Below are positions 7,822 to 25,351 of a stretch of 39,681 nucleotides of DNA, in pieces. Each line of letters begins with the position of its first letter. The stretch's first letter is position 1. Source of the stretch: Chloroflexota bacterium (GTDB taxonomy: Bacteria; Chloroflexota; Dehalococcoidia; Lucifugimonadales; Australimonadaceae); assembly GCA_028874795.1 (NCBI GenBank), contig JAPPHT010000037.1, forward strand, positions 1 through 39,681, in the 5' to 3' direction. Under the pieces are notes generated by a model. That model was given only the letters and a program-made list of their open reading frames with translations, did not search any database and was not told the DNA's origin. Made by a program: the position numbers and the translations under genes.

Positions 7822-8207
7822 GCGTCCAGCGCAGGAGCGCGGTTGGAAGCGCGCGCCGTGACAGGCGCGCGCTTACCGCGACCGCCCCGCTCCTGTTCAC
7901 CCCCATCCCAGCCTTCCCCATCGAGGGCTGACAGGGGTATGTAGAGAAGTAGCCCGAGGGCGACATGGAAGGCGCCCCGCCTCCCATGCCCCACCTCGTG
8001 CGCTGCCCGCGCACCCTGGATTCCCGCCGGTGCGGGAATGACGAACGCGGTCGACACCCGGACTCAGACCCTCCTCACTCACGCCTGTTTCCGCCCGTTA
8101 CATGCCCCTGTCAGCCCATCGAGGGGGAAGGGGCCAGGCACGCCGCGCCACATCTACCCCACCGGTTATCGCAGGGGTCTCTCAAGGAGTGGCGCCGGAG
8201 CCCGGGG
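7822..8207. repeat. Intergenic region carrying a nested inverted-repeat element
   Basis: It separates two convergent genes and no CDS is supported. It consists of a split hairpin repeat with the inserted element of 7925-8117 listed separately. The rest (7822-7900 and 8135-8207) has nothing recognisable. Confidence 0.6.
7925..8117. mobile_element. 193-bp MITE-like element, copy 1
   Basis: The left end GGGCTGACAGGGGTATGTA (7925-7943) and the reverse complement of the right end (8099-8117) match at 18 of 19 positions. The element carries a REP hairpin (near 8020-8043) and codes for nothing. Flanking DNA is a hairpin repeat: a CCTTCCCC arm to the left, a GGGGGAAGG arm to the right, and the 5-nt loop ATCGA on both sides (7920-7924 and 8118-8122). 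That is the signature of insertion into the loop with target duplication. A second copy lies at 25098-25289. Confidence 0.7.
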
Positions 8208-12872: not shown

Positions 12873-13345
12873 GCGCAGGCAGACCGCCCTCACCCGCCCC
12901 GCTGCCGCGCGGCGACCTCTCCCTCAGGAGAGGTGGGGGTGCGACCGAGAGATTGCTCGGCTCCGCCGGGTTCTGCTCGGAATGACAAGCTTCCCTACCC
13001 CACACCAGTTCACCCCCATCCTAACCTTCCCCCATCGAGGGGGAAGGGACCAGACACCCTGCCCCAACCACCCTCGCGCGGCTCGCAGCGAGCCGCCATG
13101 TGCGCCGACGCGCACTCTGGATTCCCGCTTTCGCGGGAATGACGGGTGGGGCGGGAATGACGGGGGGATGCGAGGTTCCTGCCTTCGCAGGAATGACGGG
13201 ACGCCCTGCACCGAACCGGAGGGCCCTCACCCCAACCCTCTCCCTCAGGAGAGGGATCGAACACCCCTCACCTCCAACCACCACACGCGCGGCTCGCTGG
13301 CCGCGCACTGGATTCCCGCTTTCGCGGGAATGACGGAAGGGACAG
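12873..13345. repeat. Dense REP/hairpin array
   Basis: No gene. In order: a CCGCCCTCACCC...CTCTCCCTCAGGAGAGG hairpin (12886-12936); a GACCGAGAG...CTCGGAATGACA unit (12944-12986); the intact CCTTCCCCC-ATCGA-GGGGGAAGG hairpin (13024-13046); REP hairpins at about 13119-13142 and 13174-13200; another CCTCTCCC/GGAGAGGG hairpin (13236-13256); and a last REP at 13312-13336 that runs into the ribosome site of fhs. The unbroken hairpin is the 'empty site' for the nested elements described elsewhere. Confidence 0.7.
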
Positions 13346-18956: not shown

Positions 18957-19412
18957 GTCACACCTCCTGGGATCCTTGCGTAACCTTCCACTTCACCGAG
19001 GGGCCTCAGCCTCCTGCCCGACACCGGTCCACCCCCATACTAACCTTCTGCCATCAAGGGGGAGGGATGCGCGCCCACTCCCAAGCCCCACCGGTTCACC
19101 CCCATCCTAACCTTCCCCCGTCAAGGGGGAAGGGACACGCACCCACTCCCAACCCCACCGGCTCACCCTCTCCCCGTGTAAAGACCCTTGCGTGACCCCT
19201 CCACACCACCGAGGGCCCTCACCCCCGCATCAAGTGCGGGGCAGGCTCTAACCCTCTCCCCCAGGAGAGGGAACCAAACATCCTGACCCTTCCAATCGCA
19301 CTTCCACTCACTTACGCAAAGGTCTCCTCAAGGGAGAGGGGGACCAGACAACGCTACTCCGGACGCGAGTCCATCAGGCGGCAGACGCGAGCTCGTCAGG
19401 CCCGGGGCCGGG
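18957..19412. repeat. Long repeat cluster
   Basis: No gene. Starting near 19030, variants of the CCTTCCCC-loop-GGGGAAGG hairpin appear: one with loop ATCAA (about 19045-19067, imperfect) and a perfect one with loop GTCAA (about 19111-19133). Then comes the inverted-repeat element of 19181-19326, listed separately. From 19345 to 19412 nothing is recognised. Confidence 0.6.
19181..19326. mobile_element. Second-family inverted-repeat element, copy at 19.2 kb
   Basis: The left end AAGACCCTTGCGTGA (19181-19195) and the reverse complement of the right end, GAGACCTTTGCGTAA (19312-19326), match at 12 of 15. Inside are the CCCCGCATCAAGTGCGGGG unit and a CCTCTCCCCCAGGAGAGG hairpin. The element sits between a CCTCTCCCC arm and a GGGAGAGG arm. 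A close relative lies at 35911-36053 and a diverged one at 22721-22871. Confidence 0.6.
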
Positions 19413-25032: not shown

Positions 25033-25351
25033 GAGCGGTGTGAACAGCCTCTCTCACGACCCCGCGTTTCACCCGCATCCCAGCCTTCCCCCGCCAAGGG
25101 CTGACAAGGGTATGCAGGGGAGTACCCAGGAGTGACACGGAAGGCGCCCCGCCTCCCATACCCCACCGCGTGCGCTGCCCGCGCACCCTGGATTCCCGCC
25201 TGTGCGGGAATGACGAACGCGGTCGATACCTACCCCTACCGCTCCTCGCCCACGCCTATCGCCTCCCAACTACATACCGCTGTCAGCCCGTCAAGGGGGG
25301 AGGAAGCGGGCGACCTTCTCCCGTCAAGGGAGAGGAACCTGGCGACCGGGA
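25033..25351. repeat. Intergenic region holding the second MITE-like copy
   Basis: It separates convergent genes. Left and right of the element at 25098-25289 are the two halves of a CCTTCCCCC/GGGGGGAGG hairpin. After it comes a CCTTCTCCCGTCAAGGGAGAGG hairpin (25312-25333), a candidate bidirectional transcription end. No CDS. Confidence 0.55.
25098..25289. mobile_element. 192-bp MITE-like element, copy 2
   Basis: It begins GGGCTGACAAGGGTATGCA and ends in the complement of GGGCTGACAGCGGTATGTA, the same terminal repeats as the copy at 7925-8117. The interior aligns over most of its length, including GAAGGCGCCCCGCCTCCCAT, the GCGCTGCCCGCGCACCCTGG stretch, the REP hairpin and AATGACGAACGCGGTCGA. 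Loop bases are duplicated with one change: GCCAA (25093-25097) and GTCAA (25290-25294). The different loop sequence from copy 1 indicates a separate insertion. Confidence 0.7.

Follow-up and report, generated by a model that had tools for sequence, protein, structure and literature searches.

Several insertion sequences (ISs) are directed to extragenic palindromes. The one closest in behaviour to the elements described here is ISRm22, a member of the IS4 family (IS4Sa subgroup) found in the REP elements of Sinorhizobium meliloti. Every ISRm22 copy interrupts an abundant extragenic palindrome at its axis of symmetry, and G/C stands at either end of the duplication (PMC1525189, PMC2266710). Insertion of an IS4-family element at the centre of such a palindrome therefore has a precedent in ISRm22 (PMC1525189). 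The hallmarks of the IS4 family are its DDE spacing, the Y(2)R(3)E(6)K motif, and a target duplication of about one helix turn (PMC2266710). Its subgroups differ in end sequence and duplication length, as follows: CT and 9 bp for IS10, CAT and 10–12 bp for IS231, and CA and 8–10 bp for IS4Sa (De Palmenaer et al. 2008, PMC2266710). IS1397 and ISKpn1 of the IS3 family, and IS621 and ISPpu9 of the IS110 family, also insert specifically into extragenic palindromic repeats, but their transposases are unrelated and their duplications are short or absent. Within the IS4 family, IS231A prefers GGG(N)5CCC.

The window, i.e., the whole stretch of 39,681 nucleotides that was analysed, is a contig of a Chloroflexota bacterium. 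It contains two MITE-like copies, each splitting a CCTTCCCC-N5-GGGGAAGG hairpin at its 5-nt loop. We conclude, with a probability of roughly 90%, that these are MITEs derived from an insertion sequence of the IS4 family, whose ends are CTGACAGGGGTATGTA and which inserts with an 11-bp stagger across the axis of a palindromic CCC-N5-GGG hairpin.

Copy 1 proper extends from position 7928 to 8114 (187 bp, without coding capacity; ends CTGACAGGGGTATGTA and TACATGCCCCTGTCAG), and copy 2 proper from 25101 to 25286 (186 bp), both on the + strand. Copy 1 lies between convergent Cache-domain and permease genes, and copy 2 between convergent genes for a 2-hydroxyacid dehydrogenase and an ABC-transporter ATPase. 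The inverted ends are matched four times in the window against 0.05 expected, far beyond chance; the first bases of the terminal repeat are CTGACA, and 16 bp of it are conserved. A sequence-only reading of the window had located both copies and the inverted ends correctly and had recognised that each copy breaks a pyrimidine/purine hairpin at its 5-nt loop; the element boundaries it drew (7925–8117 and 25098–25289) and its 19-bp terminal repeat starting GGGCTGACA are revised here, for reasons given below. With the duplication length taken from other copies, copy 1 is flanked by the 11-bp target duplication CCCATCGAGGG at 7917–7927 and 8115–8125 (+ strand), outside of which remain CCTTC of the left hairpin arm (7912–7916, +) and GGAAGG of the right arm (8126–8131, +). 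By the same length rule, the 11-bp duplications of copy 2 are CCCGCCAAGGG at 25090–25100 and CCCGTCAAGGG at 25287–25297 (both +), the right one having a single mismatch to the left.

The core of copy 1, CCCCACCGCGTGCGCTGCCCGCGCACCCTGGATTCCCGCCGGTGCGGGAATGACG (7989–8043, +; about positions 65–119 of the 193-bp element as first drawn), is a copy of a dispersed palindromic repeat that also exists independently, genus-wide and at 30+ other loci of the window's genome, e.g., L010–L030. The window MITE carries its copy of this repeat as cargo.

Hairpins of the CCTTCCCC-N5-GGGGAAGG type number 66 genome-wide, versus 0 for a reversed-pattern control. Two intact ones had been proposed as empty sites in the window, and they were found at 13025–13047 (9-bp stem, loop ATCGA) and 19111–19133 (9-bp stem, loop GTCAA); as a single strand, the former folds at −11.1 kcal/mol (z −4.1). 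Comparison of orthologous loci yielded empty hairpins for copy 2. Intact ones adjoin the orthologous ABC-transporter gene in three congeners (G003, G004, and G005), and their loops differ (AGCAA, ATCGA, and ATCAA); synteny at this locus is found on the downstream side only. For copy 1, no clean empty site was found in relatives, one of which has unrelated DNA there and the other of which is a poor-quality assembly.

The case shows how a hairpin target conceals the real boundary of an element. Because the hairpin stem supplies CCC and GGG on both sides, the GGG...CCC at the edges of the insert can be assigned to the element or to the target and, since CCC...GGG flanks both ends, hairpin sites are uninformative as to an 11-bp duplication. 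The sequence-only reading had assumed that only the loop is duplicated, as ATCGA in copy 1 and GCCAA/GTCAA in copy 2. On that assumption the ends would start GGGCTGACA, and a transposase from a 5-bp-duplication family would cut at the loop/stem boundary, a model that fits all of the hairpin sites equally well, as the stem already gives CCC and GGG on both sides. What decided the boundary was a set of about 50 related elements with two ends, drawn from other genomes and including ones at sites without GGG. Among 53 candidate two-ended elements, exact flank identity is found only at k=11 (28%, versus 0–2% at all other k), and mean flank identity at k=11 is 0.77, versus 0.51 for shuffled partners. 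Well-preserved copies, defined by flank identity of at least 80%, number 36, and 33 of them have an 11-bp duplication, i.e., the constant-length target-site duplication that is characteristic of MITEs.

Copies that lack GGG at both element ends place the boundary directly. L195 has AGCCCCGGCTC on both sides, L214 is flanked by CTCTGAAGCGG and CTCTGAAGCAG, and L207 and L219 have CTCCYACAGGG flanks; the elements of L195, L214, and L207 begin CTGACA, as does that of L056 in the congener G004, which has CTCCGGCCGGG on both sides. These non-GGG sites and the identity peak at 11 bp establish that the element starts CTGACAGGGGTATGTA and that the duplication consists of the loop plus three bp of each stem. 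Thus, the GGG at the start and the CCC at the end belong to the target, not to the element, and it is the symmetry of the target that produced the apparent 5-bp loop duplication. Since the 11-bp duplications abut CTGACA at the non-GGG sites, and flank identity peaks at 11 bp only, the loop-only model is already refuted for the element family; the transposases found with these ends, like their relatives, are of the IS4 type, which is known to duplicate about one turn of the helix, and we give the model hardly any credence for the window copies. Against the 11-bp rule, a few copies have direct repeats of 12–13 bp. One of these, L116 (4593–4912 of APA_bin_48), has the 13-bp direct repeat CCCGTTCGACGGG. 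The idea that this repeat tracks loop length was set aside, because the site also admits a fold with a longer stem and a 5-nt loop.

As the sequence-only reading had stated, there is no transposase in the window, and none with these ends was found in the assembled genome. No autonomous copy or matching transposase was found in the window's genome or genus, nor any homologue of the transposase described below in that genome and five congeners; the PF01609 transposases of the genus (L083–L087) were rejected as partners, having no matching ends. The autonomous partner that is usual, not obligatory, in the same genome as a MITE is found instead in another genome, G068. There, the full-length element L192 (1,330 bp) has ends that depart from the MITE consensus at 0 and 1 positions and an 11-bp duplication with one mismatch (GGAGGGGAGGG/GGAGGGGTGGG). 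It is the only complete same-ended element, and its transposase gene contains one in-frame stop. More transposase fragments lie beside the same ends at L294, L295, and L296; relatives of the L192 protein in G064 and elsewhere in G068 adjoin the same ends, and one in G059 adjoins a diverged end.

The L192-type protein matches the Pfam DDE_Tnp_1 model (E 1.6e-10) and an NCBIfam IS4 model (E 3e-27), and scores of 70–102 bits against NF033591 (the NCBIfam transpos_IS4_2 equivalog) fall below the curated cut-off of 152 bits. A search against solved structures returned no relative. The Y(2)R(3)E(6)K motif is present as YALRFWIELGFKAIK in L192, and it is also found in L301, L304, L305, L310, L313, and L321. 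The D(62)D(102)E spacing of the L293 and L301 proteins lies within the IS4 range, D(60–110)D(100–150)E, and the 11-bp duplication is about one turn of the DNA helix. The transposase of the element is likely an IS4-type DDE enzyme such as those bounded by the same ends in other genomes. On the basis of shared ends, duplication length, and target, such an enzyme would have mobilised the window copies in trans, in line with the sequence-only reading's expectation of a transposase acting in trans, and its source element would since have been lost from the window's genome.

In the reaction we propose, the IS4-type DDE transposase would cut both ends of the element and join them 11 bp apart across the axis of the palindromic CCC-N5-GGG target, for which a dispersed hairpin repeat (9-bp stem, 5-nt loop) usually serves. 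As the staggered joints are repaired, the loop and 3 bp of stem per side would be duplicated. By analogy with Tn5 and Tn10, the reaction may follow the IS4 pathway of cut-and-paste through hairpinned ends.

The earlier comparison with REP-targeting insertion sequences is apt, with ISRm22 as the nearest case: both are of the IS4 family, both insert on a palindrome axis, and both have G/C at the duplication ends. ISRm22 differs in being autonomous, with reported 6-bp duplications and the CA- ends of its subgroup, whereas the present elements have CT- ends, 11-bp duplications, a different hairpin repeat, and gene-less copies. The IS231 subgroup resembles them in its 10–12 bp duplications and target specificity but has CAT... 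ends, with another end sequence, and the present target, CCC(N)5GGG, is the mirror arrangement. The IS10 subgroup shares the CT- ends, the size of about 1.2–1.35 kb, and the YREK motif, but has 9-bp duplications and another target. The combination of CT ends with 11 bp matches none of the seven subgroup rows in the table of De Palmenaer et al. (2008), to which the comparison was confined.

The consensus of the 41 reconstructed empty sites is a palindrome, rich first in C and then in G, in which CCC-N5-GGG is the part duplicated. The preference for palindromic hairpin repeats, claimed from the sequence alone, is borne out by the pairing of 8–9 of the 9 stem positions in 21 of these sites, versus 0.025% of window positions. 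At about a quarter of sites, the hairpin is weak or absent; thus, the preference is strong but not absolute. Copies in unrelated DNA, which the sequence-only reading had counted in advance against itself, do exist (L195 and L214), with 11-bp duplications of their own.

How the target is read may be considered further. In a variant compatible with the IS4 reading, what the transposase captures is not a duplex palindrome but an extruded hairpin or cruciform. Such capture would suit the insertion on the hairpin axis at most sites, the pairing of stem positions though sequences differ (d=6, 9, and 10 above shuffles), the good folding of the hairpins as single strands, and the like behaviour of ISRm22. 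However, the hairpins are poor at several sites (L192, L195, and L228), the insertion at L248 is off-axis, the conserved C/G consensus at the duplication ends accounts for much of the preference, and 11-bp double-strand duplications fit a duplex target, so that we consider the variant unlikely. Similarly doubtful is a broader proposal, in which an undescribed IS4 subgroup, widespread in Chloroflexota, would pick the folded or extruded hairpin of dispersed repeats, which would thereby offer the element and its MITEs a safe harbour throughout the genome.

Further copies are found when the window's genome and its relatives are searched for the terminal repeats. The genome has about nine loci: two on contig C28, one each on C80, C26, C89, and C79, two partial ones on C25, and one split between C25 and C15, where a copy runs off the end of C25 and resumes at the start of C15. 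The description of the element as MITE-like and mobile holds well, the copies being short (186–206 bp), multi-copy, bounded by 16-bp terminal inverted repeats, and free of a transposase gene. The C79 copy is common to the window's genome and G004, at the same site, L056 being the orthologue. In the window's genome this MITE (L012/L020, G000:C79:431–1657) is split by another insertion sequence, which is absent from L056. The five full copies, the congener's included, are 70–84% identical and are accordingly old; those of the window's genome are diverged and probably fossils.

A class-wide scan of 393 genomes for these ends gave only chance-level single matches outside the window's genome, so that the distribution of the element is patchy. 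When public genomes were scanned, Chloroflexota MAGs proved to contain many elements that end in this way, with more than 150 ends in ten of these genomes versus 0–1 in controls. A single match in a viral contig (L088) was rejected as a chance match, having neither paired ends nor a plausible site. Recent activity is seen elsewhere, in G060, where two MITEs that are 99% identical occupy different hairpins. The G060 MITEs at L223–L250 enclose the common GTCATTCTGAGCGAAGCGAAGAATCT-type repeat, i.e., another nested repeat. Internal repeats differ between MITEs of different lineages, so that conservation is limited to the ends and the target preference.

That the element lies inside one repeat and has another in its core could also suggest something not mobile at all, namely a composite repeat, made up of the hairpin and a 187-bp insert, which recombination or conversion would have spread together with its hairpin arms, and L006 and L009 each have one end replaced by hairpin sequence. 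But similarity between copies stops exactly where the duplication begins, and the DNA beyond it belongs to different hairpin families or to no hairpin; the claim that the ends mark the edge of similarity thus holds for the corrected ends. Empty sites exist, the same ends bound a transposase gene, and a composite repeat is contradicted by L195 and L214, which lie in unrelated DNA with their own 11-bp duplications. We therefore regard it as very improbable and retain IS4-type transposition. In L009 (G000:C89:119601–119794) and L006 (G000:C25:29200–29311), one end and its flank became a full hairpin, e.g., CCTATTCCCCCTCGAGGGGGAAGG; this is the outcome that quasi-palindrome correction would give with the opposite arm as template.

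More distant relatives of the transposase, at 38–51% identity and with 11-bp duplications, are found in other genomes of the phylum, and their ends are related, e.g., CTCAAAGGGGTAGGTA and CTCACAAGGGTAGGTA. L301, L304, L310, and L321 are homologous full-length ISs with perfect 11-bp duplications. In one complete genome (G233), all five copies, 96–99% identical, are in the hairpin cccttctCCCCGTGTGGGagaaggg or a close variant. This hairpin has the form CCCTTCTCCC-CGTGT-GGGAGAAGGG, and 143 intact copies of it are present in that genome. With five of five copies of a distant relative in hairpins, the hairpin preference is shared across a wide transposase clade. The G233 copies (L328–L332) are of an IS4-type element with open transposase frames, recently active, in a single hairpin repeat family, and the element is a good experimental model.

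The elements are a well-documented new example, from uncultured bacteria, of an insertion sequence that targets hairpin repeats. An insertion sequence confined to extragenic palindromes does its host little damage, and such elements illustrate how transposases can be kept to safe sites. With many copies, empty sites, non-autonomous as well as autonomous partners, and distant relatives of like preference, the case lends itself to a direct test of palindrome recognition by an IS4-type transposase.
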